Shown here: positions 9,414-54,721 of the stretch, piece by piece | Position numbering within the stretch: the stretch's first letter is position 1 | Layout of the letters: every line of letters begins with the position of its first letter | Source of the DNA: Peptococcaceae bacterium | GTDB lineage: Bacteria > Bacillota > DSM-12270 > Thermacetogeniales > Thermacetogeniaceae | Length of the DNA stretch: 64,000 bases | NCBI GenBank assembly: GCA_023249405.1 | Contig: JAHFCR010000003.1 | Coordinates: forward strand, 1-64,000 | Direction of reading: 5' to 3' | Made by a program: the position numbers and the translations under genes | Notes under the pieces: generated by a model | What the model was told of the DNA's origin: nothing | Database searches by the model: none | What the model saw: the letters and a program-made list of their open reading frames with translations, nothing else

Positions 9414-10220
9414 CTACTTCCGGTCCGGCTCTTCCCAGATCGTCCAGGGGGCGTTTCCTGCGCTCCACAGCCTGTTCAGCAACTCCACCTCGCGCTGTGT
9501 ATCCATACACTGCCAGAAACCTTCGTGGTGGTAGACTGCCAGCTTGCGCTCGCCGGCCAACCGGGACAGGGGCCCCTGCTCCAATATGGTGGCAGGCCCA
9601 TCCAGATAGCTGGCTATTTTCTTGTTGACGACAAAAAATCCCCCGTTGATCCAACCCGTGTCCAGGGGCTGCTTCTCCCTGAATTCGGTGACCATGTTCC
9701 CCTCGCACGACATCTTGCCAAACCTGCTTACAGGCCTGACCGCAGTCATCGTCACTGTAGCGCCGGTCTCTTGATGCGCCTCGATCACCCGGGGAATATT
9801 GACGTTACCGACACCATCCCCGTATGTAAGCAGAAAGTTATCGCTGGCGATATACTTCAGCACTTCAGCAACTCTACCGCCAGTCATGGTGTGAAGACCG
9901 GTTTCGGCCAGCACCACTTTCCAGTGGACATTATCGTCCCCGTCATCGAGCGGCACAATCTGGCTTTTGCCCAGATCCACCATGATATCCTGGGCATGCA
10001 GATTATAGTGGTGAAAGTACTCGCGGATCGCGTCGCCTCTATAGCCCAGGCAGATAATAAAATTTTCGAATCCGAAATGGGCATAGATACGCATGATATG
10101 CCACAGCACCGGCTGATGCCCGATCTTGACCATGGGCTTTGGCTTGAACTCCGTTTCTTCCTTGAGGCGGGTGCCCAGCCCACCGGCCAGGATCACGCAC
10201 GGCCAATCCAGTTTCACCAT
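9414..10220 (-). CDS. rfbF: glucose-1-phosphate cytidylyltransferase
   Basis: Makes CDP-glucose from CTP and glucose 1-phosphate, the entry step to CDP-dideoxysugars. The 268-residue protein carries the nucleotidyltransferase signature AGGLGTRLKEETEFKPKPM, where the Glu-Glu-Thr and PKPM segments are typical for RfbF, then the metal-binding TYGDGVGN and a conserved C-terminal WQCMDTQREVELLN. The ATG at 10220 is preferred (GGGGAG 11 bases upstream); a GTG four codons earlier overlaps that site. It lies between rfbH and rfbG and makes the substrate for the latter. Confidence 0.95.
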   Translation of the reverse strand: MVKLDWPCVILAGGLGTRLKEETEFKPKPMVKIGHQPVLWHIMRIYAHFGFENFIICLGYRGDAIREYFHHYNLHAQDIMVDLGKSQIVPLDDGDDNVHWKVVLAETGLHTMTGGRVAEVLKYIASDNFLLTYGDGVGNVNIPRVIEAHQETGATVTMTAVRPVSRFGKMSCEGNMVTEFREKQPLDTGWINGGFFVVNKKIASYLDGPATILEQGPLSRLAGERKLAVYHHEGFWQCMDTQREVELLNRLWSAGNAPWTIWEEPDRK

Positions 10221-10247
10221 CGAAGCAGTCACTCCCCAGTTGCCTGC

Positions 10248-11606
10248 TCAAGCTTGCAAAATCTTGCCTCTCCGGGCTGCATCGAGAAATTCGATCAAGA
10301 CTCCGGCGACATAGCCTCTCTGCGCCGCGTCTATTCCCGGGTAGACCCCGATCCAAAAACCATTTGCCATCACAGCGTCAGTGTGCGCCAGATCCCCGAC
10401 CGTACGATGGTTCACGTCCAGGAACGCCGGCTGCCGCAGCAGGTTTCCTCCAAACAGCAGCCGCGTCTGCACTTTCCTTGCCTCCAGGTAACCCGTAACC
10501 TGGTTGCGGCTAAAAGGAGCGCTGTCCCTGACTAGGATCATGAACCCGAACCAGCTCGGTTTGCAGCCGGGGGCTGGCTCCGGCAGCACCAGGAAATCTG
10601 CATAGGCATCCAGCGTCTGACGAAAAAAAGCCCAGTTGGCGCGGCGCGCCTGGATGAAAAGATCTAGTTTGTTCAACTGGGAACAGCCAATCGCTGCCTG
10701 CAGGTCAGTTGCCTTCAGGTTGTATCCGATGTGGCTGTAGACATACTTATGGTCGTATCCAAAGGGCAACCGGCCATGCTGGCCCTGGAAACGCCTGCCG
10801 CAGAAGTCATCCTCGCCCGGAGGACACCGGCAATCGCGCCCCCAGTCCCGGAGGCTCCTGATGATCGAGGCCATCTTCGGCAGGCCGGTAATGATCGCTC
10901 CGCCCTCGCCCGTGGTCATATGGTGCGATGGATAAAAACTGAAGGTGGCGGAATCTCCATAGGTGCCCGTAAGTCTGTCTCTGTAGATTGAGCCGGCGGC
11001 ATCGCAGTTGTCTTCGATCAGCCATAGACCGTGCCGGTTCGCTATCTCCGACGCTACGTCAAGGTCGAACGGGTTGCCGAGGGTGTGGGCCAGCATGATT
11101 GCCTTCGTTCTGGGAGAAACCGCCCTTTCCAGGTCCTCCGGCACTGGCGCATAGGTTGCCGGCTGGAGATCGATAAAGACCGGGATCGCTCCATATTGGA
11201 TGATTGGAGCCACGGTGGTGGGGAATCCCGCTGCCGCCGTAATCACCTCGTCACCGGGCAGGATTCGCCGTTCGCCCCATTCAGGGCTGGTGAGCGCCAT
11301 AAATGCCAGCAGGTTGGCGCTGGAGCCGGAGTTGACGAACAGGCAGTCCTTAGCCCCGAACTTCTTGGCAAAATCACTCTCAAATTGCCGGGAAAAACGC
11401 CCCGCCGTCAACCAAAAATCCAGTGCCGCCTCGACCAGGGTCTGCAGGTCCTGCTCGTCATAGATCCGCCCACCGTAATGGACTGGCGTCACGCCGGGAA
11501 CAAATTGATGGAGGGCCTGACGGCAGCGATACAGTTCCCCGACCTTCTGCCTGATTTCGGCCCGCAGCAGGTCTTCCGCGCTGTTTGAGGATCTTTTATC
11601 GATCAG
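10248..11606 (-). CDS. rfbH: CDP-4-keto-6-deoxyglucose 3-dehydrase (E1)
   Basis: PMP- and [2Fe-2S]-dependent enzyme that removes the C3 hydroxyl of CDP-4-keto-6-deoxyglucose. Two hallmarks are visible. The usual PLP lysine is replaced by His in SFYPSHHMTTGEGG. The iron-sulfur ligands follow the E1 spacing C-x57-C-x-C-x7-C, from the Cys in EDNCDAAG to those in DCRCPPGEDDFC. The start is a problem. The first ordinary start codon is GTG at 11492, but about 25 conserved residues (LRAEIRQKVGELYRC, then FVPG) lie upstream in frame. An in-frame TGA at 11613-11615 leaves only CTG codons (for example 11606 or 11567). The stated start is therefore tentative. The E3 reductase partner is not in the window. 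Confidence 0.9.
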   Translation of the reverse strand: MIDKRSSNSAEDLLRAEIRQKVGELYRCRQALHQFVPGVTPVHYGGRIYDEQDLQTLVEAALDFWLTAGRFSRQFESDFAKKFGAKDCLFVNSGSSANLLAFMALTSPEWGERRILPGDEVITAAAGFPTTVAPIIQYGAIPVFIDLQPATYAPVPEDLERAVSPRTKAIMLAHTLGNPFDLDVASEIANRHGLWLIEDNCDAAGSIYRDRLTGTYGDSATFSFYPSHHMTTGEGGAIITGLPKMASIIRSLRDWGRDCRCPPGEDDFCGRRFQGQHGRLPFGYDHKYVYSHIGYNLKATDLQAAIGCSQLNKLDLFIQARRANWAFFRQTLDAYADFLVLPEPAPGCKPSWFGFMILVRDSAPFSRNQVTGYLEARKVQTRLLFGGNLLRQPAFLDVNHRTVGDLAHTDAVMANGFWIGVYPGIDAAQRGYVAGVLIEFLDAARRGKILQA

Positions 11607-21356: not shown

Positions 21357-22601
21357 TTACATTTGACGATTCCATTCGGTAGCCATACCGGCTTCATCAA
21401 TTGCTCCGTCTCTATGCGTCTTGGTCAGCCTCTCACTGGGAACGGCGTAGCAGACCAGATCCCAACCCTCGTCAAGATGAGGTCTCAAAAAGAAGTGATA
21501 TCCGTCGTAGAGCCTCTTTATTTGCAGCGGAATGCTCCAGAGATCGTGCGGTTTGTGGTAAACGCAGATGGCTAATACAGGATGATTTTCACCGATCACC
21601 TGTTTGGCGCCAACCAGCGCCTCGATTTCCGAGCCTTCGATGTCCATCTTGATAAACGTGGGTCGCACATGCGCCAGGCTCTCATCAAGAGGAAAACTGT
21701 CGACCTGCCATATTCCGTCTTCCTTGACGCGCGCATCCACGCCGCCCGTCGATTCAAACCAGACTTTCTCCCTGGCTTCTCCGACTGCATAAGGATAGCA
21801 CTCGACTCTTTTTTGCAGGTTTTCGTCAAGGGAAGCAATGCAGTTCTCAAGTGCTGTGAAATTCTGAGGATCCGGTTCGAAAGCGATATATTTTTTAAAC
21901 GAGGCTTCCCTTCGTTTTAAAAAGGCTTTCAGGGTGTCACCGTCGAATGCTCCGCAGTCAATAAACGTCTCCTGCCCTGCTGGAGCGTAAATGTCTTCTG
22001 CAAAATACTGCTCGGCGGCGATCGGATCGGACAGCTTGCTCCAGTCGGAATAGAGCCGCCATTCCAGTTGAGCCAGGTACTCGCTTCGGGATAGATCGTC
22101 GCTCAAAAGGTTGTAGGCGCCGCTAATATTCTCTTTTTCCTTCAGAATATTGGATGGCAGATCGAGGCAGAAATCAGGCAGGAAATGTTTCGGGTATTTC
22201 CAGTACAATAGCGTGAAGGGAATGACGGTTTTACAGCCCAGACTTTCCAGCTGAGCGATAACATGCGTCATCCTGTGCCCCTTCCCGGCCTTCCAGATAG
22301 TGATCACAAATACTGCCGATGCCCCAAAACGTTGCGCCGCATCCTGGGGAGACAGAACTGGCACGCCCTCAAGAGAACGCCCCCAGAGGCCGGGGTTGTT
22401 GTCCGCGCAGGCGATCGGTTCGATCCCCTCCTGGCGCAGACCGATCAGGGTTTTATGCCCCAAACCGCCTGCGCCAAACAATACCAATGAATCACAGGCC
22501 GCAGCCATTTGATCAAAGGCTGTTGCCTCACGTTGTCTAGTATCCGGCAGAGACTCTGAAAGCAGGGAAGCGATGCTGCCATTGTTAACTGTATCGTTCA
22601 T
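21357..22601 (-). CDS. FkbM-family methyltransferase with N-terminal Rossmann-like domain
   Basis: A 414-residue two-domain protein. Residues about 30-140 read LVLFGAGGLGHKTLIGLRQ and ACADNNPGLWG, a nucleotide-binding Rossmann-like region seen in front of some FkbM and sugar O-methyltransferase domains. The C-terminal half is the FkbM core: FIDCGAFDGDTLKAFL (SAM loop), KYIAFEPDPQNFTALE, and FIKMDIEGSEIEAL. FkbM domains transfer methyl to hydroxyls of sugars or polyketides, so capping or decorating a glycan residue is likely. It precedes the NeuB-like gene by 25 nt in the direction of transcription. The ribosome site is weak. Confidence 0.83.
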   Translation of the reverse strand: MNDTVNNGSIASLLSESLPDTRQREATAFDQMAAACDSLVLFGAGGLGHKTLIGLRQEGIEPIACADNNPGLWGRSLEGVPVLSPQDAAQRFGASAVFVITIWKAGKGHRMTHVIAQLESLGCKTVIPFTLLYWKYPKHFLPDFCLDLPSNILKEKENISGAYNLLSDDLSRSEYLAQLEWRLYSDWSKLSDPIAAEQYFAEDIYAPAGQETFIDCGAFDGDTLKAFLKRREASFKKYIAFEPDPQNFTALENCIASLDENLQKRVECYPYAVGEAREKVWFESTGGVDARVKEDGIWQVDSFPLDESLAHVRPTFIKMDIEGSEIEALVGAKQVIGENHPVLAICVYHKPHDLWSIPLQIKRLYDGYHFFLRPHLDEGWDLVCYAVPSERLTKTHRDGAIDEAGMATEWNRQM

Positions 22602-22734
22602 TTTTTATTACCAGCCTTTTTCGAGATATTCCAGACAGCGATATCGCCCATGATGGCGATCGTCTTGGCCGGGGCCAGGCGCATGACTATAACTGAATCA
22701 ATCGCAATAATGCCGTTATATGGCAAACGATAGT

Positions 22735-23250
22735 TCACAGATCGCCCAGTTTGCGAAATACCATCCAGGCAACCCAAAGAACCGAAGGCAGTGTGTCCGG
22801 AGTGTCATGAACACCGCAGGCCACCCTGAGCCACCGTGCACCAGAGGGAGCGGCCACCAAACCGCTGTAGCGCTCCAACCTAGTCGTGGAAGTAAATTTG
22901 AGCTGCCTCTCGCTATGGTACTGCCGGTTCTCATCCATAAAGATGGCGATCAATCTCACAGGAGCACCCTCATTGGCCGTTCGCATCCAGGCAGACAGTT
23001 CCCAGATCACGCCAGGCTGCGCTTCAATCAGGTATTGTTGGTCCTGTTCGATCCCGGTCACGCTTGCCGTATATGTTGTGTTGCCGATCTTGACAGTGCG
23101 GCGGTTGATGATATCAAAATAGCCATCAGTCCAGGCCACAGTAGTGCCCTCATCCCCGTTAAGCCTTACCCACCCCAGGGGGAATTCCGCATCCGTGCGC
23201 TTAATATCAAAATAACCGTTAAAAATGAGGTTTTTCTCAGGTCCAGCCAT
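22735..23250 (-). CDS. small CBM-like beta-sandwich protein, paralogue 1
   Basis: A 171-residue protein with no signal peptide or membrane segment. The start (KNLIFNGYFDI), the FPLGW turn, WELSAWMRT and VACGVHD are spaced as in carbohydrate-binding jelly-roll modules, but I do not recognise a named family. It is clearly paralogous to the protein at 27184-27693; by eye about half of the residues are identical over the whole length, including NLxFNGxFDI and LKFxSTTxxxRYxGLV. The two copies bracket the glycosyltransferase genes between them. It could be a glycan-binding helper or an acceptor protein; neither role is proven. Confidence 0.7.
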   Translation of the reverse strand: MAGPEKNLIFNGYFDIKRTDAEFPLGWVRLNGDEGTTVAWTDGYFDIINRRTVKIGNTTYTASVTGIEQDQQYLIEAQPGVIWELSAWMRTANEGAPVRLIAIFMDENRQYHSERQLKFTSTTRLERYSGLVAAPSGARWLRVACGVHDTPDTLPSVLWVAWMVFRKLGDL

Positions 23251-23294
23251 GAGCGTCAGTTCACCTTCCGTTCATAGTGAAGAACTATTGAAAA

Positions 23295-26200
23295 TTAATA
23301 GGATACCGGCTCATATTGGTCTTCATCCGGCTCCTCGGGGGGTTTTTTATAGAGCTTATGGCCCCGCGCAGCCAGAAGGGCCGCTTTCTGCTCGATGTAG
23401 CTGCGGATCGTCTGCGGATGCTCCCTGCGGAAGGGCCAGAGCGGGCGGCACTTGAGAAGATCATCCGGGTCCATCTGATCATAGCTGCTGATCGAACGTC
23501 CGAGGAGATGGTCGTAGAGTTTGAACTTATCCAATATTTGTGCCGGTGGCTTGGTGTAGCCGTAATGCACGTAGTGAATTCCGGAGTCCTTGATCTTCGG
23601 CCCGATGACCGGCTTTTCATGCACTACTCCCTCATAATGCAGGCCCGGCACATTGCGAATGAGAAACAGCCTTTTGAAAACCGGATCGTTGTCACTGCGA
23701 TTCTGCATGTAGTAATAGCTTCTCATCAAATGATAGAACCAGCAGGTGTAGGCATCCACCGTCCTGTCCCTGACCAATTCGGGGAGCCGCTCTTTCAGAT
23801 CGTCGTAAAAGACCTCGTCGGCATCCACGATCAATACCCAATCGCTGGCGATCTTGGAGAGAGCAAAGTTGCGCAGGCTGCTGAAGTCGGTCTCGTCAGA
23901 TGAGTAGAGCTTGACCTTGCTTAATCCGCTGATGCCCGTGACGGTACGGTCAGTCGATCCGTTATCGACGACGACGATCTCCTGGACGGCATCATAAACG
24001 GATTTGATGGAAAATGGCAGATATTCCTCCTCGTTTTTCACCACGTAGAGGGCACTCACCGTAGGTACATTTGCATCTTTTCCCACCCCGTTCTCAGGGT
24101 GGGGCGCCTCGCCGATGTCAAGCTTCCGGGGTCCACCATCCTTCTCATCGCATGGGACTTGACGCCGGGCGCCGGCCGGTTCCGAGCCTTGCAGCAGATC
24201 CAGGTATAGCTGGTGGTGCTTCTCGGCGCACTTCTCCCAGGTATGTTCCAGGGCATACTGCTCGATACGGCCTATCCGGTCTTCCTGGGACTGCGGGTGT
24301 CCCAGCATTTGGCACAGGGCATCACAAATCGCTTCCGGAGTAACGGCGGATATTTTCATCACCTGTGCATCGAGATCGGCAAAAAAAGAGGCATCCGAGG
24401 TGATGATCGGCCGGCGGGCGGCAATTAGCATGCGAACGGCGGCAGAGGTGCTGTTGTATCCGCATTCGGTGTAGGGCAGGACATTGATGTCCATGGCGCT
24501 CAGATGATCGATCAGTTCCTGTTCCGGAATGAAATCCAGGCTCAATTCAATGGCGTCTTGCAACCCCAGGGTCTCGATCTGCTGTAAAAAGTAGCTGCAA
24601 AACTCACCAGAGCTTCTGTTTTCAGAAATACTGGAAAAAAGATAGCACTTGGCATTGGGGTAGCATGTGCTGCGTAGCCGCTTGACGGCCTGCGCCAGCG
24701 GCAAGATTCCCTTGTGCCAGTGCATGAATCCGAAGAAGCCGATCGCCGGTCGCGACCCCGGGCCGATCTCCTGACCGGCCCGATCCTGCCTGTGCGGGTA
24801 GACATCCGGTATCCCCATAGGGATGACTCGCAACTCCTGGGGCCAGCCTTTTTTTTGCAACAGCTCCCTGGTATGCTCTGCATGAACTATTACCCTGGTG
24901 AAGAGCCGCCGCAGGAGCTGGTTATGCAGAACGGCCTCTTCTTTATAGGAATGCAGGGTGAGCAAGGCCAGTTTCCCCTGGGTGGCCAATAGACGGCACA
25001 GGGATTCCAACTGGCTATTGTCGTAGAGGCTGTACTCATACTGGAAATGGACGATCGGCATCTCCAGCAGGTCAGCAGGGTTCAAGCCCGTCAGCGGACC
25101 CCCCAGGATCTTGACCCTCCAACCCAGCCTTTTCAGCGCCCGGCAGAGGGTTTTGGTGTACTCGGCAATGCCGCATTGTTTTCCCAGGCTGGGGATGATC
25201 ATGGCCACCCCACGGCTGGCAGCTTCACATTCTCCGGGGCTCACGTGTCCGCATCCGGATGGCACCGGGCAGTGGCGCACCGGCAGCAACTCCTGCAGTC
25301 GCCGGTACATGCGCCCGGCGCTGGCATCCCAGCTCAGTTCGGTCTCGATTGCCGCTCGAGCCCCGGCTGCCCGTTCCCGCGCCTCGCTGCGGTGTTCGTA
25401 GACCCAGCGCATCAGATAGCGCAGGTGCTCGATACTGGGTCGCGCCCAATGGTGGCCACGGTAGACATCATCGTTGTTAGTTCCGAGACTGGGAACGGCA
25501 TCCAGGGACTCGACCTCGATCAAAAAGGCATTGTCGTTGTTGAGCCAATCCAGGTGAGCAGACCAGGCGGTGGTGATCACCGGCAATCCGCAAGCCAGCG
25601 CTTCCAGGGCTGGCAGGTTCCAGCCCTCGCCACGGGTAGGCAGGACAAAACAGTCTGCCATCCGGTAAAGCTCCGGCATCTGGACCATGGGCATCACTTC
25701 CGGCAAGAGGGCGATTTCCGGAGCCCGCCGCCCCGGTTTACGGTGTTGGGCGGCGATTTCATGGATTGTTTTGGCGATTGCTGTTCCATCGGGGTCATAA
25801 TCACTATTGGAATGGCTTTTCAACACCAGGCAGACATCATCTCCGGCCGTGAACTCCTGAAGATAGGCTGTCAGTAAAAGATCGTAACCCTTGCGGGGAA
25901 CCCATTCGAAAACAGAAAGAAAAATGAATATTTCTGCATCTAGCTTGGTAAAAGCCAGGTTGCGCCCAACCGGTGTGAACAATCCGGTATCGACCCCTAG
26001 TGGCATCACCCTGATCTTGTCGGCAATCACCCCGCTGCGGCAAAAAGTCTCCGCATTGAAGCTCGAAGGCACCCATACCTCATCCATACGGTTGCAGCAG
26101 TCAACCCAGGAAGCCGGCAGGCCATCTACCTCCAGCATGGTCAACCCTACCGCCGGCAGTGTGGATACCCTGCAGAACAAGGGTGGTATGCTGATGTTGA

Positions 26201-47374: not shown

Positions 47375-48049
47375 TTAACGGATGCGGCGCACGCTGCTCC
47401 GGCCCTGGGACATCTCCACCAGATAGGCGATGTCGGCGGAATCCGCCAGATGCTGGTTGTGGGAGACCATGATGATCTGCCGCCCGAGGCTCTGGCTGAA
47501 GCTCTTCAGGAACTGGGCCACCTGGGGCGCATACTCCTCCGAGACGTGCTTGGCCGGCTCATCCAGGATCACCGGGCCGCCAAGACCGACCTGCGGGGGG
47601 TACCCCTGCGGGCGAAAGGCGTGCAACAGCGCCAGGCGCAGGGCCAGAGAGATCACATCAACCACTCCACCGCCCCGGGCATCCTGCGGCGCCGTCTCCA
47701 CCCGCAGATCTCCGCCATAGCTGGAGCAGACGTAAAACTCCGCCTCGGGCCGGTCGCGCTTCTCCTCGATCACCACCTTGAAATCCAGGTCGCCGCCGAA
47801 GACGAACTGCAAGGCCTGGGTGACCATGAACTCCACCTGGCGCCGCCCCTGTTCCCGGGCGTGCCGGGCCGCCTCCTGCAGCAGCAGGCGCACCTTCTCC
47901 AGGCGCTCGGTCGCCGCTCTGACCTCGGCCAGCCGCTGCTCCTGGTCTGCCTTGTCCTGGAGCAGCTTCAGCTCCTCGCCGCGTTGTTGATGATAGACCG
48001 CCTTCGCCCGCGCCAGCGACTTCCGTAGATCGCTCAGTCCCTCATTCAC
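47375..48049 (-). CDS. split Rad50-like ATPase, C-terminal half
   Basis: A 224-residue protein matching only the C-terminal lobe of Rad50/SbcC. Residues 1 to about 75 are a coiled coil rich in Glu, Gln and Arg. The ATPase lobe follows, with an ABC-signature-like segment ARGGGVVDVISLALRLALL, Walker B with D-loop GPVILDEPAKHVS and the switch His in VSHNQHLADSAD. There is no Walker A, so it cannot hydrolyse ATP alone. It should pair with the Walker A half encoded at 48527-50116. Its GTG start shares one base with the stop of the coiled-coil gene before it, with GGAG nine bases upstream. Confidence 0.85.
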   Translation of the reverse strand: MNEGLSDLRKSLARAKAVYHQQRGEELKLLQDKADQEQRLAEVRAATERLEKVRLLLQEAARHAREQGRRQVEFMVTQALQFVFGGDLDFKVVIEEKRDRPEAEFYVCSSYGGDLRVETAPQDARGGGVVDVISLALRLALLHAFRPQGYPPQVGLGGPVILDEPAKHVSEEYAPQVAQFLKSFSQSLGRQIIMVSHNQHLADSADIAYLVEMSQGRSSVRRIR

Positions 48050-48324
48050 TAGGCCCGCTCCTTCTCCAGCAGGTCCCAGGGGATCAGCTTGTCCGCATCC
48101 GCCAGCAGCCGGTCCATCTCCTCTTTCAGGGCGGCGATCTTCTGTCCCAACTCCTCAGGCTTGACCCCGTATTCCGCCGCTTTCTGGTACAGCTTCTCCC
48201 GCTGCTGTTCCAGCATCTCCTTCTGGCTGAGCGCCCGCGAACGCAGATCCCGGGACCGGCGCAGCGCTTCCTTGAGGCGGCTGATCTGCTTATCGTACTG
48301 GTCTTGTTCCTTTGGCCCCTGCAC
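48049..48324 (-). CDS. small coiled-coil protein of the split Rad50 set
   Basis: A 91-residue, highly charged helical protein (KEQDQYDKQISRLKEALRRS, then AALKEEMDRLLADADKL) with heptad patterning and no cysteine. It lies between the two halves of the Rad50-like ATPase and touches the C-terminal half gene by one base, so both are translated together. It may supply part of the returning coiled-coil arm. The GTG start at 48324 has GGGGAGGA six bases upstream. I recognise no named family. Confidence 0.75.
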   Translation of the reverse strand: MQGPKEQDQYDKQISRLKEALRRSRDLRSRALSQKEMLEQQREKLYQKAAEYGVKPEELGQKIAALKEEMDRLLADADKLIPWDLLEKERA

Positions 48325-48526
48325 TATAATTCCTCCCCATGCGTATGAACTTGACTATTCCCTCATCAGGCTTGGATCGGGCTGAACCCTGGCCAGAGAA
48401 CCGGCAGGAGATCAGCCGGGACCGTCCCGTAATTTCCATATTATTAAAGTCGCTCTGGCTGAATAACCACTCGTGTTAAGAATTTGTTCCAGCAAAACGT
48501 TTAGAAGCGCCCCGCGTTCCCGCATT

Positions 48527-50116
48527 TCACTGGTACTCGGACAGGGCGCGTTCCACCGCCTCCGGTGTCAACTCGCCGAAGCAGACCGGGCACCGGCCCA
48601 GTTGCGCCAGCAATCGCCGGTAGTCTGACAACAGTTGCCCCGTCTCCTGCTCATAGCGTTCCGCCGCCAGGGTCGCCCCCTGATACTTGCGGTCTTCATC
48701 CTCCCAATCCCGCCCCAGTTCCCGTAGGGCAAGCAGGCCCTGCCCAGCAGCGCCGGCACTCGTCAGACAGGATTCAGCCTGCTCCAGGTGCTCGGTGCGG
48801 GCGGCAATATCGTTAACGCCCTGCAAAGAGCCTGTTACCGCCGACAGCTCCACGGCTACCCGCCTCAGCTCTGACCACTGCAGGCATAATTCTTCGGCCT
48901 GCTGCCTCAGTTCCTCGGCAACGGATACGGGGGCGGTCAGGTCTGAGATATGATCGACCAGCTGCAGGGATTGTGCTATCGCTGACAAATCGCCAGACAC
49001 CTGCGATAGCGCCGACCACTGCCTGTACATTTCTTCCGCCTGCTGCCACAGCTCCTCGGCAACAGGTACGGGAACGGTCAGGTCTGAGATGCGACCGGCC
49101 CGCTCCAACTGCACGGCAGTCTGGGCGATCTCCCCCTCCAGCTGGACCAATCTCAGGCAATCGCCGAGCAAGACCGGCAAGCGCTCCAGTCTCTGTTCGG
49201 CATCGCCCAACCGGGCCAAGGCAGCGATCCTGTCCCTCGCCGTCTCCAGTCGCTGGCCTACCTGTGACAGCTCGGAGGCGATGGCCGACAGGTTTCGGTG
49301 ATCGACGAACGCGGCTTCCAGGTCTCGCGCCCGGTCCTCGGCCTGATCCATGGAGGCGAGGGCCGCCAGCAGGCTGCCGGTATCCGATAAGGCGCCGGAT
49401 ACCTCGCGCCACTGGCGCTGCAGCTCATCCAGGGCCGTAATAGTAGTGGTGATCGCCTCGATCCGCCCCAGCTTCTGCTCCAGGCTGTTGATGTTGGCCT
49501 CCAGCGCCGGCAGGTGGGCATAGCCATCCAGAACCGCCTCCAGACTGGCCAGGCTGGCACTCAGTTGCCCGTCCTCTTCCCGCAGGCGGCGCAGGTCGGT
49601 GCCGGTCGATCTCTGGGCCCAATCCAGGATGTGGACGCCGCCGAGCTGGCCGATCACCTTGGCCCTGACAGCGCCGTTCTCTGACAGCAGGAAGGGCCCT
49701 TCCAGCTGGCCTCCGAAATTCAGTTCCACCTTGTTGCGCTCATCGACCTGCACTTTTCTGATCTCTGAGGCCTGCAGGATCTCCAGGGGGATCTCGTTGT
49801 TGAAGCCCTCGAAGACCATCTCCTGTTCGCCCGGGCGCTGTAAGACATACTGGTTGTTCTTGCCGGAGGCGTTCCGCAGGCGGGTGATCTTGGCGCCGTT
49901 CTCGAGTTCTACGGTGACGCGGCAGGAGTTGGCCCCCACCCGGATGAAATTCGCCCCGCGGGGTTCGTTGTAGAAGAGCCAGCGCAGCGCCCGGACCAGG
50001 GCTGATTTGCCAAAATCGGAGGGCCCGACGATCACGTTCAGACCGGGTCCGAAGCTGACCTCCGTGTGTTCGTGCGACTGGAAGTTGTCCACGATCAGCT
50101 TGCTCAAACCGCTCAT
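48527..50116 (-). CDS. split Rad50-like ATPase, N-terminal half with zinc hook
   Basis: A 529-residue protein equal to the first half of Rad50/SbcC. It has LIVDNFQSHEHTEVSFGPGLNV-type start (N-terminal lobe), Walker A GPSDFGKSALVRAL near residue 32, a Q-loop region in LQASEIRKVQVDE, and a long coiled coil from about 180 to 500. It ends CPVCFGELTPEAVERALSEY. The CPVC at about 509-512 is a Rad50-type zinc hook, and the frame stops 17 residues later, where a normal Rad50 would turn back. Walker B and the signature are absent. The coil contains an internal repeat (ISDLTVPVPVAEELWQQAEE and ISDLTAPVSVAEELRQQAEE). Its start overlaps the Mre11 stop as ATGA. Confidence 0.88.
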   Translation of the reverse strand: MSGLSKLIVDNFQSHEHTEVSFGPGLNVIVGPSDFGKSALVRALRWLFYNEPRGANFIRVGANSCRVTVELENGAKITRLRNASGKNNQYVLQRPGEQEMVFEGFNNEIPLEILQASEIRKVQVDERNKVELNFGGQLEGPFLLSENGAVRAKVIGQLGGVHILDWAQRSTGTDLRRLREEDGQLSASLASLEAVLDGYAHLPALEANINSLEQKLGRIEAITTTITALDELQRQWREVSGALSDTGSLLAALASMDQAEDRARDLEAAFVDHRNLSAIASELSQVGQRLETARDRIAALARLGDAEQRLERLPVLLGDCLRLVQLEGEIAQTAVQLERAGRISDLTVPVPVAEELWQQAEEMYRQWSALSQVSGDLSAIAQSLQLVDHISDLTAPVSVAEELRQQAEELCLQWSELRRVAVELSAVTGSLQGVNDIAARTEHLEQAESCLTSAGAAGQGLLALRELGRDWEDEDRKYQGATLAAERYEQETGQLLSDYRRLLAQLGRCPVCFGELTPEAVERALSEYQ

Positions 50117-51105
50117 GCCTCTTCCTCCCCCCGGGCCATGGCCTCTTCGGCGAGGCCGACGCGCCGCAGCGCCTCTTCCCTGATCCCCTGCTCCAGCTGC
50201 TCATTGCGGGCGATCTCCTCCACCAGCAGCCGCACGTCAGCCCGCTGGTAGGACCCGGCCGCCTTGACCTCTGCCAGGTAGCCGGCCAGGCGCTCCTCCC
50301 TGAAAGAGGCCTCCTCCTGCCGGCTGCGGTCGAGCACGTCCACCCCCGGAGGGGCGCTCTGCAGCCTGATCTTTTCGTAGACGGGGCGGCCGCCGCCAAG
50401 CTCGATGTAGATTACCTGCACCGGCCGGATCAACTCCTGCGGGTGGTTGGAGAGGCGCGCCAGGGCACCGGGATTGAGGAAGTGCTTGCCGTCATGTTCG
50501 GCATCCGGGAACCCCAGGTGGTTGTGGCCGGCCAGGGTGAAGTCTGCTTCGGTCTCCCAGATCTGTTCGATCAGGGTATAGCTGGCGCCGGGGTAAACCG
50601 CCCGGTCGAGCAGCATGCCGTGCACCATGTGGATGGCGTAGTCGCAGTCTTTTTTGGCTACGATATAGTCATGGCGTGGGTCGCGCTGGCGGTGATCCAT
50701 CTCGAAGTGGTATCCCCGTCCGGTAAGCTGTAGCCGGAGGCCGTTCTTTTCCAGGTACACCGGCTCCTGGCCGATCATCCTGACGATCCCCAGCCGGGCG
50801 GCCAGACCCAGCATGGTGCGGGGCAGCGTCTCGGCGTTGTTGCCGAACAGGTCGTGGTTGCCCGCAATGATGTAAACCGGGGCCGGGAACTGCTGGTAGA
50901 TCTCCAGAAAGTCGGCGCAGACGCTGATGGCCGGCGCCGGCACATCGTAGAAATCTCCCCCGTGCAGGATGTAGTCCACCTCCCGCTCGCGGGCGATGGC
51001 CGCCACCTCCCGCAGCTTGATGGCCAGGGTGGCGGGAAAGTTGTCCTTGCGGTTGGCGGGCGTGGTGCCGCGCTTGTGGTCATCGGTCAGAAACAGCAGG
51101 CGCAT
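50113..51105 (-). CDS. Mre11/SbcD-type nuclease
   Basis: A 330-residue calcineurin-like phosphoesterase with all Mre11 metal motifs: LTDDHKRG (DxH), HGGDFYDV, AGNHDLFG, the His of MVHGML and LAGHNHLGF. The C-terminal part is charged and helical, as needed for binding the base of the Rad50 coiled coil. It should act as a Mn-dependent exo/endonuclease gated by the Rad50 halves encoded downstream. The ATG at 51105 (one base after the HerA stop, GAGG seven bases upstream) is chosen over a frame running 38 codons into herA. Confidence 0.92.
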   Translation of the reverse strand: MRLLFLTDDHKRGTTPANRKDNFPATLAIKLREVAAIAREREVDYILHGGDFYDVPAPAISVCADFLEIYQQFPAPVYIIAGNHDLFGNNAETLPRTMLGLAARLGIVRMIGQEPVYLEKNGLRLQLTGRGYHFEMDHRQRDPRHDYIVAKKDCDYAIHMVHGMLLDRAVYPGASYTLIEQIWETEADFTLAGHNHLGFPDAEHDGKHFLNPGALARLSNHPQELIRPVQVIYIELGGGRPVYEKIRLQSAPPGVDVLDRSRQEEASFREERLAGYLAEVKAAGSYQRADVRLLVEEIARNEQLEQGIREEALRRVGLAEEAMARGEEEA

Positions 51106-51106
51106 G

Positions 51107-52978
51107 CTAATCCTCTTCTCTGAAGGCAGAACTGATGGCATAGCTGGGGCCGAAGGGCCCTGCGGTTTTCTTGAGCCTGCCGGCGGCAGCGAACTCCTCC
51201 AGCCACTCCCGCACCTCATCGAAGGTCACCGGGCGGTTGAGGCCGCGTTCGAAATCAGCCAGGTACAGGGTGATCTGGGCGGCATCCAGGGGCAGGCAGC
51301 CTGCCAGGAGCCGCCAGACCTCGGGCTGCAACATTCCGAACCCTTCCTCCAGCTCGGTGAAGGGGTTGACGGTGTGCGGGGCGCTGGTGCGGGCACAGCG
51401 AATGCGGACGGCCACGGTGCGGCCGACCACCGCCGAGGAGATGAAGGCGGTGCCGGAACTGAGGTAGGGAAGACGCTCCGCCTCCTCGGAGGTGATATCC
51501 GTCTCCTCCTTGATCACCCGGATATCGGACTCCCGGACGGTCCTGAAGATGATCTTGGTGTTCAGCTGGGCGTTGATCGTCTCATCCAGGGAGGCCGGCC
51601 GTTGGGTGGCCAGGATCAGGAAGACGCCGTACTTGCGGCCCTCCTGGGCCACCTCCCGGAATACCCCCCGCGCCGGGGCGATGATCTCGAAGCCCTTGGG
51701 GGCGAAGTTGTGGGCCTCGTCGGTGGCGATCACGAATGGTGGAAACTTCTCACCGGGCGCCTCCCCGCGCTGCAGGGCGTCGGTGTAGCTGCGCCGCAGA
51801 TGGTATAGCTTGCTGATCAGATAGGAACTCAAAACTTTCAGCAGCCAGATCGGGCCGCGGATCACCGTCAGGCGCCTCCGTTTGAGGGAATCGATGATCG
51901 GAGCGATCTCCTTGCGGAAGATTCCCTCGCGCTCCAGCCGGAGCAGCCGCCACTGAACGCCCCGCAGGCTGCTGGGGAAAACAGCCGTACGGGCCATGGC
52001 CGCAATCATCTTTTCATAACGGGAATTGGGGCCATGCTTCTTCCGGATCTGCTCGCGGGCCTCATCTTCCTTTTCCAGCCAGGCGATCAGGTCCTCCAGC
52101 CGGCCGGTAAAACTCACCAGGGAATCCTTGTTCCGGTACACGGTCTTCAGAGCGTTGTCCATCCCCTCGGTGAAGTTGCCGCCGGCGGCCATGAGTAAGT
52201 TGGCCAGTTCATTGCTGCTCAGTTCCTCAAAGTTGATGCCGATATCGCGCCCGATGTTCAGGATCGCCGTCCGGCCGCCGTAGCGAGCGCCGTAATCACC
52301 GGCCATCCCTTCGAAGGTGGTGGCGAAGCTCATCTCGTAGTGGGGATCGAAGACCAGGGTCGGCACCCGCTTCTCCAGCAGTTCCTCCAGGATCACTCTG
52401 AGGCCGAAGGACTTGCCGGAGCCGGAACCCCCGAAGATCCCCAGGTGCGGGTACTCCTGCATCGCCTGGTAGTCGAAGATGAAGGGCGTCCCGCTCTGTG
52501 GCAGCACCCCCGCTCCCTTGACAAACAGCGGGGCGATCTCCCGCAGTGCCGGCGGCAGACCCTGCTGCAACTCCTCGGTGCCCAGGAACACGCCCAGCAC
52601 CAGGCCGCGGTCCGGCGGGCAGGGAATCAGCAGGTCCCTGACCTCTTCGAATGACGGCACCCGCACGGCGGCCCCGACCGCTACCGGGGAGGGCAGGTTG
52701 CCCAGCATGCGCACCTTCGCCAGGTGGATCGTCTCATCGCCCACGTTGAAACCGATCTGCTCCAGCCCCTCCCACACCCGGGAGTCGATCAGAGGGCTGC
52801 GCTCCAGAGTCAGCGGGAGGAACCGGTTGAAGGACTTGGTCTCCACCACCTCGCCCCGGGGCTGGCGCAACTCCGCATCATCAACCACCAGGACCTCGTT
52901 GATGCGGAACTTCCGCTCCCTGGAGGCGACGTAGATATACTGTTGTGTGGTGACGCCAACCACCTGCACCCGCATCAT
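51107..52978 (-). CDS. HerA-type DNA helicase/translocase
   Basis: A 623-residue hexameric RecA/FtsK-like ATPase. An N-terminal HAS-barrel region (YIYVASRERKFRINEVLVV) is followed by Walker A GGSGSGKSFGL near residue 185 and Walker B IATDEAHNF. The HerA-typical segment TQRPASLDETINAQLNTKI precedes a C-terminal extension with a helical four-helix insertion before it. HerA drives DNA through the NurA nuclease during end resection, alongside Mre11-Rad50, in archaea and some bacteria. Two ATG codons stand next to GGGGAG, and a GTG three codons later has better spacing, so the start is uncertain by a few residues. Confidence 0.9.
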   Translation of the reverse strand: MMRVQVVGVTTQQYIYVASRERKFRINEVLVVDDAELRQPRGEVVETKSFNRFLPLTLERSPLIDSRVWEGLEQIGFNVGDETIHLAKVRMLGNLPSPVAVGAAVRVPSFEEVRDLLIPCPPDRGLVLGVFLGTEELQQGLPPALREIAPLFVKGAGVLPQSGTPFIFDYQAMQEYPHLGIFGGSGSGKSFGLRVILEELLEKRVPTLVFDPHYEMSFATTFEGMAGDYGARYGGRTAILNIGRDIGINFEELSSNELANLLMAAGGNFTEGMDNALKTVYRNKDSLVSFTGRLEDLIAWLEKEDEAREQIRKKHGPNSRYEKMIAAMARTAVFPSSLRGVQWRLLRLEREGIFRKEIAPIIDSLKRRRLTVIRGPIWLLKVLSSYLISKLYHLRRSYTDALQRGEAPGEKFPPFVIATDEAHNFAPKGFEIIAPARGVFREVAQEGRKYGVFLILATQRPASLDETINAQLNTKIIFRTVRESDIRVIKEETDITSEEAERLPYLSSGTAFISSAVVGRTVAVRIRCARTSAPHTVNPFTELEEGFGMLQPEVWRLLAGCLPLDAAQITLYLADFERGLNRPVTFDEVREWLEEFAAAGRLKKTAGPFGPSYAISSAFREED

Positions 52979-53173: not shown

Positions 53174-54193
53174 CTATAGGTCGCGGCGGGCTCGCAATGG
53201 GCTCAGGAACAGCTCCCGCAGGTCCGGGTCCAGGTAGGCGGCCAGCAGCACCTCCACCTGTTCGGCAGTGATGCGCACCTCGGCATCGACCACGTCCAGC
53301 CAGAGGGGAAAACCCCTGCCGTGGGCTGGCGTGACCGTATATAGAAAGTTCATGGCATCATCCAGGTCCCCGGCCTGCTCAGCCAGATAATCCACGGCGA
53401 TCGCCTGCGGGTGCCCGGACAGCCGGGCATAGACCCGGTTCCACCGACACGGGGAGTTAGTTTGTTTATGAACCCGGAGGATCTCGCCCGGCTGCAGCAG
53501 ACCGTAGAGGAACTCCCGGTCGGCCCAGCCGGTAAAAGCCCCTTTAAGCGCATCTTCTATCTCCGATACCTGCTCAACGAGGACCTGGGTGGCGATCTCC
53601 TCGGTCACTCCGAGCATGATCGCCCCCTTCTGCAAAGCACCATTTTTAATCCGCCCCCAGATTGCCGGAGCGTGTTTTTCCAGGCGGGCAAAACCGCCGT
53701 CCCACAGCAGGATCCTGGGATGTTCCCGCTCCAGGGCCGCCTCGCCCATCTGCGTCTCCATAGCGGCCAGGGTCTCCCAGCGAATATGCGCCAGGGCATC
53801 ATCCGGGTTAATGCCCTGATCGAGCAACCACTGCACCCGGGCCTGGTCCTTCGACAATAGCGGAGAGAAAACCTTGTAGGCCCAGAACCTGTTTCCCGCT
53901 GCCCCCCGCCTGGTGGACCTGGCCAATGCCCGAAAGAAGGTCGCCGTGTAGGGAAAACTGGCGCCGCAGGAACCGAATGAGCCGTCCACCCCCACCAGAG
54001 GCGAATCTCCAAACAGAGCCCGGATCTCCTCCGGGCCAAGATAGCGCAGCGGGGCGATCTTTCCGATCTGTTGGGCCAGGTTGCGCCGCATGGCTGTGCC
54101 GCCTGCCGCCTGCTGCCGCCGGGCCAGCGCTCCGTTCAACTCTTTTAGCTCAGCCGCCAGTCCGTCTGTTTCCTGCCAATCGTCAATATCCAT
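53174..54193 (-). CDS. NurA-domain 5'-3' nuclease
   Basis: A 339-residue NurA protein: LVGVDGSFGSCGA holds the first catalytic Asp, ILLWDGGFARLEK the second strand motif, and AIMLGVTEE, then HKQTNSPCRWNRVYARL and AIAVDYLAEQAGD complete the RNase H-like core. NurA resects 5' strands with HerA. It is the first gene of the operon nurA-herA-mre11-rad50N-coil-rad50C. The ATG at 54193 is preferred; a TTG two codons earlier is possible. A gap of about 195 nt with a hairpin separates it from herA. NurA-HerA pairs are best known from archaea and thermophiles. Confidence 0.9.
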   Translation of the reverse strand: MDIDDWQETDGLAAELKELNGALARRQQAAGGTAMRRNLAQQIGKIAPLRYLGPEEIRALFGDSPLVGVDGSFGSCGASFPYTATFFRALARSTRRGAAGNRFWAYKVFSPLLSKDQARVQWLLDQGINPDDALAHIRWETLAAMETQMGEAALEREHPRILLWDGGFARLEKHAPAIWGRIKNGALQKGAIMLGVTEEIATQVLVEQVSEIEDALKGAFTGWADREFLYGLLQPGEILRVHKQTNSPCRWNRVYARLSGHPQAIAVDYLAEQAGDLDDAMNFLYTVTPAHGRGFPLWLDVVDAEVRITAEQVEVLLAAYLDPDLRELFLSPLRARRDL

Positions 54194-54721
54194 GATCAAA
54201 ATACCCGCTGTCCTTTACCAATGCTGCGGTTAGCGCGCCCCTATTCACCGCTTGCGCTTGTTTTTTACCAACATTAATGTGAAACTGGTATCAGTGCGAC
54301 CAGGTCTTCTGCCGCCGGGTACCAACCCAGTGGGTACCCTCTGGTAAGCTTAGCACAAGCCAAGCCTTCTACGGAAGCGACAGCATTAGTGCCGGTTAGC
54401 CGCCGGATACGTCTCTTGAACGCGCTTCCCGCCCAGTCTTCGCCTCAGGTCCGCTAACATTATAGAAGCGCCCCCGTGTTATACTTTTCCAGTCGCCAGT
54501 TTAAGAGTTCGGCATTGCCATCCTGCTTTCCTCCATGCCTGGCGCCAGCACGGAAAAAACAACAGTTCTGCCCTGCTAGTCAAAAAAAGGTTTTAAAACC
54601 AGTGTTTTTAAATTATTATTGGATATGCAGAGCATTTACTGCTTACGTGGAAACCGATTTCTAGATATTTCCATCCAGGAGAAAATATCGTAGACTGTAT
54701 CCTGAAGGAGTTGATAGAGCG
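54194..54721. other. divergent intergenic region between nurA and manC
   Basis: About 530 bp with no recognisable gene. It holds the GGGTACC element (54317-54339), a 12-bp palindrome GGTTTTAAAACC (54589-54600) and an AT-rich stretch (54590-54700) that probably contains the manC promoter. The nurA promoter should lie at its left end. No RNA gene or riboswitch could be recognised. Confidence 0.5.
54317..54339. repeat. GGGTACC dispersed element, copy 2
   Basis: Sequence GGGTACC-AA-CCCAGTGGGTACCC, in the nurA-manC intergenic region. It shares the arrangement GGGTACC, two or three bases, CCCAG(A/T)GGGT(A/G)CCC with 41673-41696. The inner GGGTACC copies allow alternative hairpins. Confidence 0.55.

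Follow-up and report, generated by a model that had tools for sequence, protein, structure and literature searches.

A probable three-polypeptide Rad50 with a hook arm of quantised length in Firmicutes and their phages

Does a Rad50 have to be a single chain? The question is raised by a locus in a 64,000-nucleotide stretch of the genome of a Peptococcaceae bacterium (assembly GCA_023249405.1, contig JAHFCR010000003.1, positions 1 to 64,000; hereafter the window), in which the two halves of a Rad50-like ATPase are encoded by separate genes, here termed N and C. A third gene, M, lies between them, and genes for an Mre11/SbcD-like nuclease, a HerA-type helicase/translocase and a NurA nuclease are found upstream (Table 1). 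In our judgement the locus very probably encodes an Mre11-Rad50 complex in which Rad50 consists of three polypeptides. The sequences indicate that it is related to Rad50, and a Rad50-like mode of working may be inferred from them. A preliminary description of this DNA had recognised the split; the arrangement exists as described there, but neither how widespread it is nor the quantised length of its arm had been noticed.

The N protein has the features of a Rad50 N-lobe followed by a segmented helical arm and a hook. It exceeds the cut-off of the Pfam model AAA_23 (PF13476; 55.4 bits, cut-off 27), which is matched by 54 of 54 N homologues, and it matches the phage family phrog_16465 at 1.9e-71. 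A profile of N matches the N-lobe of Rad50 from Pyrococcus furiosus (3qkr_A, 9.6e-10), and its C-terminal end matches Rad50 zinc hooks (6zff_A, 1.9e-4; 1l8d_A, 4.7e-4). The CPxC motif is present in all 64 chromosomal N homologues, and the hook is predicted to bind zinc. In the AlphaFold2 model of N, the N-lobe, helices in a row and the hook follow each other (predicted local distance difference test, pLDDT, 78; predicted template modelling score, pTM, 0.34).

The C protein is best matched by the C-lobe of the same P. furiosus Rad50 (3qkr_B, 2e-12), and by phrog_15167 among the phage families (6.8e-59). Its AlphaFold2 model (pLDDT 90.4) shows an 83-residue helix followed by a C-lobe, and a Foldseek search with this model retrieved SMC and Rad50 C-lobes. 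In addition to the signature-like segment and Walker B listed in Table 1, a switch His is found within VSHN (residues 195–198). The R-G-G-G of the signature (R125–G128) is invariant in 49 homologues. The motifs that the preliminary description had read from the two proteins, including a coil in N and an end 17 residues beyond CPVC, are thus confirmed in the sequences and by the Pfam and profile matches.

The M protein is matched by phrog_18563 (1.4e-5), and no credible match was found in solved structures or in Pfam except generic coiled coils. Usually about 75–110 residues long, it aligns as two helices with a break between them and, in most homologues, a GVxPExL motif. It sits between N and C in 66 named Firmicutes loci, accompanies N in the clade in which C is unlinked and adjoins folD (see below), and went undetected only in genomes with coil-less Mre11-N-C fusions. 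Its absence from divergent short-N phages was considered and rejected, as most of these loci have a two-helix frame of 75–86 residues directly upstream of C. This constancy indicates that M is a third, general component of the system; the 91-residue intervening gene of the preliminary description is real, but it is more than a bystander.

N and C are separated by M and a further 202 nucleotides. M starts with GTG after a good ribosome-binding site, GGGAGGAATTATA, and the start of C shares 1 nucleotide with the stop codon of M, so that M and C lie in different frames. Comparison of close relatives gives N a ratio of non-synonymous to synonymous substitution rates of about 0.28–0.37 in most pairs, with one pair at 0.17; the values of M, C and Mre11 are mostly smaller. 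Judged from sequence, N, M and C are all open and under purifying selection, and represent neither chance frames nor decay. The Mre11 gene lies directly upstream of N, in relatives too.

The same split recurs widely. Of 20 species of the class, 19 have C as a gene of its own, and in the class loci that were fetched the three parts are encoded separately (N being cut by contig ends in two of them). Thirteen of the 15 class relatives whose sequence extends far enough upstream share the order NurA-HerA-Mre11-N-M-C. Across the phylum, about 62 of 399 genomes carry a free-standing C by hand count. Eighty named loci were recovered from Firmicutes, and C is separate in every one: 66 have N, M and C as adjacent but separate genes, and in the other 14 the flanks fetched around C contain no N. 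The parts also occur in 59 viral contigs; N was seen in 56 of these, and none of them has it joined to C. A continuous hooked N-M-C gene, which the preliminary description named among the observations in relatives that would refute its proposal, was not found in the class, the phylum, the named loci or the viral contigs. These data indicate that the split is ancient and widespread in Firmicutes and their phages. The earlier account of intact frames with good starts, divided by a gap and another gene and not explicable by one frameshift, is borne out by the overlap in different frames, the selection on each gene and this recurrence.

Further copies were observed. The genome of the window has a second, divergent split copy on another contig (C33; L053, 5147-10619), with N, M, a ParB-like frame and C followed by Mre11; in the C tree it clusters with viral copies, and it therefore probably belongs to a prophage or other mobile element. 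Genome G019 also has a second split copy (L054, 5243-8143), which has a C cut short at 184 residues and a truncated Mre11, and looks decayed. In Bacillus phage vB_BboS-125 (NC_048735; L031), an unannotated Mre11 gene lies between gp36 and gp37 (9929-10909 of the fetched locus, 22423-23403 of the record).

The neighbouring genes point to a role in DNA repair. Among the 80 named loci, NurA/HerA is found upstream in 24 and recA, often with recX, in 33, the latter usually with rny downstream. Two gene orders result, NurA-HerA-Mre11-N-M-C and recA-(recX)-Mre11-N-M-C-rny, and because of these neighbours we infer a function in the repair and resection of DNA breaks. No canonical SbcC was detected in the genome of the window, which is 98.8% complete (TIGR00618 reached 23.7 bits at best, and PF13558 had no match). 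A 1196-residue frame on contig C34 was considered as a canonical SbcC and rejected, as it is an SMC beside ftsY. A strict exclusion between split C and canonical SbcC was also rejected, since about 24 of the 62 split-C genomes have SbcC as well (hand count).

A system serving mainly in anti-phage defence, or derived from phages, would account for the many phage copies. It would also suit the best matches in a defence library, which are mad8 for HerA (5e-27) and mad3 for C (5e-11), both from MADS, hinting that this system contains a related HerA together with a split or coil-less ATPase pair. On the tree, however, the chromosomal copies cluster largely according to host and gene context; they are present almost throughout the class and stand beside recA or NurA-HerA. 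We therefore consider a mainly defensive role or an origin in phages unlikely, and a function in break repair the better reading of the locus.

Whether N and C are partners at all is addressed by natural fusions. In one bacterial family of the phylum, three genomes encode a single protein of 684–700 residues that comprises Mre11, the N-lobe and the C-lobe, and has no arm, hook or M. The genes adjoin frames that, read from the sequence, look like addB/addA. Such a fusion is a Rosetta stone for the pairing of N with C. In three phage contigs (L207–L209) Mre11 is fused to N, with M and C as separate genes. One could propose that each half joins another ATPase (RecN, an SMC or another half) and that adjacency reflects shared regulation, and the clade that keeps C at a separate locus would agree with this. 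The existence of the Mre11-N-C fusion, the constant co-occurrence of the halves (N is present in all 12 genomes of that clade that were searched), and the fact that each half lacks what the other has make it very improbable.

The unlinked C genes are informative in a further respect. At these 14 loci C adjoins folD and rny/ymdB wherever these are visible, and on the C tree the 14 rows form one branch inside the recA-linked group. As this branch is single and nested, one departure of Mre11-N-M from the recA-rny site is the simplest explanation. An intact Mre11-N-M was found elsewhere in the genome in 12 of the 12 searched, about 1 Mb away from C in Pseudobacteroides cellulosolvens, and in these genomes joining by a frameshift is excluded. 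Production of one chain by programmed frameshifting, ribosome hopping or trans-splicing would suit the M/C overlaps of 1–4 nucleotides seen in many genomes, where a −1 shift could act. Given the 14 loci whose fetched flanks have C but no N, the 12 genomes with Mre11-N-M elsewhere and the phages with other genes inserted among N, M and C, it is scarcely credible. Recent disruption of a single Rad50 gene by a frameshift, a stop codon or an assembly error would explain why the halves are adjacent and in Rad50 order, but the genes have their own starts, overlaps and purifying selection, and intact split homologues in independent assemblies (19 of 20 class genomes, all 80 named loci of Firmicutes and several dozen viral contigs) have already refuted it, leaving it a negligible probability.

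The proposal that the halves assemble in trans with Mre11 is supported by the lack of a continuous hooked gene, the unlinked intact C in 12 genomes and the Mre11-N-C fusion. Physical assembly of N, M, C and Mre11 is thus predicted from the sequences.

The arm of N is built from a regular unit. Autocorrelation along the window protein peaks at lags of 47, 94 and 141 residues, and the mean over 64 N homologues is highest at 47 and 94. Lag 47 was the strongest of 81 lags in 78 of 123 dereplicated N sequences, and one of the two strongest in 110. The arms of SMC from the same genome give heptad multiples instead, and shuffling a 434-residue N homologue in heptad blocks reached its lag-47 value in none of 2000 trials. 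The length of the arm is quantised accordingly: in 105 anchored sequences, which include near relatives and are not 105 independent events, 249, 296, 343 or 390 residues lie between the end of the head and the hook, nearly always to within 1–2 residues. In the window this span is 343 residues. The 47-residue unit structure and the quantised length are new in this analysis. The extra units do not form a perfect DNA tandem repeat; the best pair of 141-nucleotide segments is 73% identical, so the duplication of units is not very recent.

Across 51 loci the length of the N arm tracks neither the length of M (Spearman −0.20, p 0.15) nor that of the C helix (0.15, p 0.29). The N arm therefore has no return strand of equal length, and, with no matching strand in M or C, it would have itself or another N as its partner, or remain for the most part unpaired. 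This predicted geometry agrees with the earlier suggestion that a split would permit arms of unequal length, as neither M nor C changes in step with the 47-residue increments of N.

A working model can be proposed from these data. N would supply Walker A and the Q-loop, together with an arm that terminates in the CPxC zinc hook, and C the signature, Walker B, the D-loop, the switch His and a long helix that packs on the root of the N arm, so that N and C together would form one ABC ATPase head. Two heads would bind an Mre11 dimer and, with ATP, would close over a DNA end, and two N hooks would share one zinc ion, either inside one complex or across two. The arm is envisaged as a series of heptad-like helices, each about 40 residues long, with one break in every 47 residues, able to grow by whole units only. 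M, as a small helical hairpin, probably braces the arm or its root, which is the weakest part of the model. Acting with HerA-NurA, the complex would resect broken ends for RecA.

Several observations weigh against this model. The signature of C, RGGG, departs from the usual SGG(E/Q) or LSGG(E/Q), and ATP-driven engagement of the heads may therefore differ. C also scores below the cut-off of the Pfam SbcC_Walker_B model, and the NCBIfam equivalog models of Rad50 score far below theirs. The Pfam model Rad50_zn_hook is passed at E 0.01 by only 12 of 54 N homologues, and the confidence of the N model is moderate. Two relatives of the same genus (L034 and L036) keep Mre11-N-M-C with no NurA-HerA within about 6.5 kb upstream. 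On balance, we find it rather more probable than its opposite that the three-subunit Rad50 is an old, widespread alternative to SbcC in Firmicutes and their phages, whose hook arm is a modular ruler of 47-residue units pairing with itself, another N or M, and not with the other half of Rad50.

Table 1. Features of the split Rad50 locus in the window and of the fusion proteins in other genomes.
Feature	Position	Strand	Evidence
NurA nuclease	53174..54199	-	PF09376, 35.4 bits, over cut-off
HerA-type helicase/translocase	51107..52978	-	PF01935, 73.2 bits, over cut-off
Mre11/SbcD-like nuclease	50113..51105	-	PF12850 and PF00149 over cut-offs; start taken as MRLLFLTDDH
N, 529 residues: Rad50 N-lobe, segmented helical arm, C-terminal zinc hook (putative)	48527..50116	-	Open frame; PF13476, phrog_16465, Rad50 profile matches
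Walker A GPSDFGKS, N residues 31-38	50003..50026	-	Sequence
N arm: six 47-residue units in a row, numbered from the hook (6 to 1)	48593..49438	-	Autocorrelation, register
Zinc-hook CPVC codons, N residues 509-512, 17 residues before the N end	48581..48592	-	Sequence; CPxC in homologues
M, 91 residues: two-helix protein, third component	48049..48324	-	Open frame; phrog_18563
C, 224 residues: long N-terminal helix and Rad50 C-lobe	47375..48049	-	Open frame; phrog_15167
ABC-signature-like ARGGGVVDVIS, C residues 124-134	47648..47680	-	Sequence
Walker B VILDEP, C residues 160-165	47555..47572	-	Sequence
Mre11-N-C fusion proteins	L165:6764-8818, L166:7652-9754, L167:7583-9670		Sequence

Quantised arms allow a direct test of the open question of how the ATP state of the head is relayed to the hook along Rad50 and SMC arms. 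The evolved lengths, from 249 through 296 and 343 to 390 residues with little between them, amount to a natural experiment, and, with heads, arm and hook on different proteins, each could be changed alone. The annotation of phage genes may be corrected as well, as their 'exonuclease', 'ATPase' and hypothetical proteins appear to be pieces of one Rad50. Likewise, genomes that seem to be devoid of SbcC, including that of the window, appear to encode a divided Rad50 next to NurA-HerA or recA.

In the open papers searched, no account of a Rad50 split in nature was found, in agreement with the preliminary description, which knew of none. Archaeal Rad50 is one chain. The archaeal NurA-HerA-Mre11-Rad50 operon shares four functions with the locus, where Mre11-Rad50 likewise forms an operon with NurA and HerA, but here Rad50 is split and M is added. 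A two-chain construct of P. furiosus Rad50 was reportedly made in the laboratory by removing the coil and hook. This catalytic domain (1f2t/1f2u, 1ii8, 3qkr) resembles the present system in having the N-lobe and C-lobe as two chains, and it gives the best profile matches; in contrast, the split described here is natural, and the arm and hook stay on N.

Among phages, an Mre11/Rad50 fusion in which one SbcC NTPase segment was not observed has been described in Bacillus phage 0305phi8-36 (PMC3175470). The contig L209 (218,948 bp) is probably this phage, and its Mre11-N fusion is accompanied by a separate C gene, which is an NTPase segment of that kind, with M between; neither the missing half nor M was identified in that paper. 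The PHROGs families 16465, 18563 and 15167 hold the phage homologues of N, M and C, but as unconnected families ('exonuclease', unknown and 'ATPase') that were never joined as one system. The arms of SMC proteins are statistically periodic in length, with steps of about 100 residues, and whether periodic elements matter in Rad50 arms was considered unclear (PMC5344682). In both cases arm length is limited to steps; those of N are 47 residues and vary little, and the sequence itself shows the unit.

Compared with Mre11-Rad50/SbcCD, the system has an Mre11-type nuclease as partner, an AAA_23 N-lobe and a C-lobe with Walker B, D-loop and switch His as ATPase halves, a helical arm and a CxxC hook. 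It differs from the single chain with matched antiparallel strands and the canonical LSGG(E/Q) signature that define Rad50/SbcC in that Rad50 comprises three polypeptides, with RGGG as its signature, M as an extra subunit, and an arm that is quantised by 47 residues and has no return strand of equal length.
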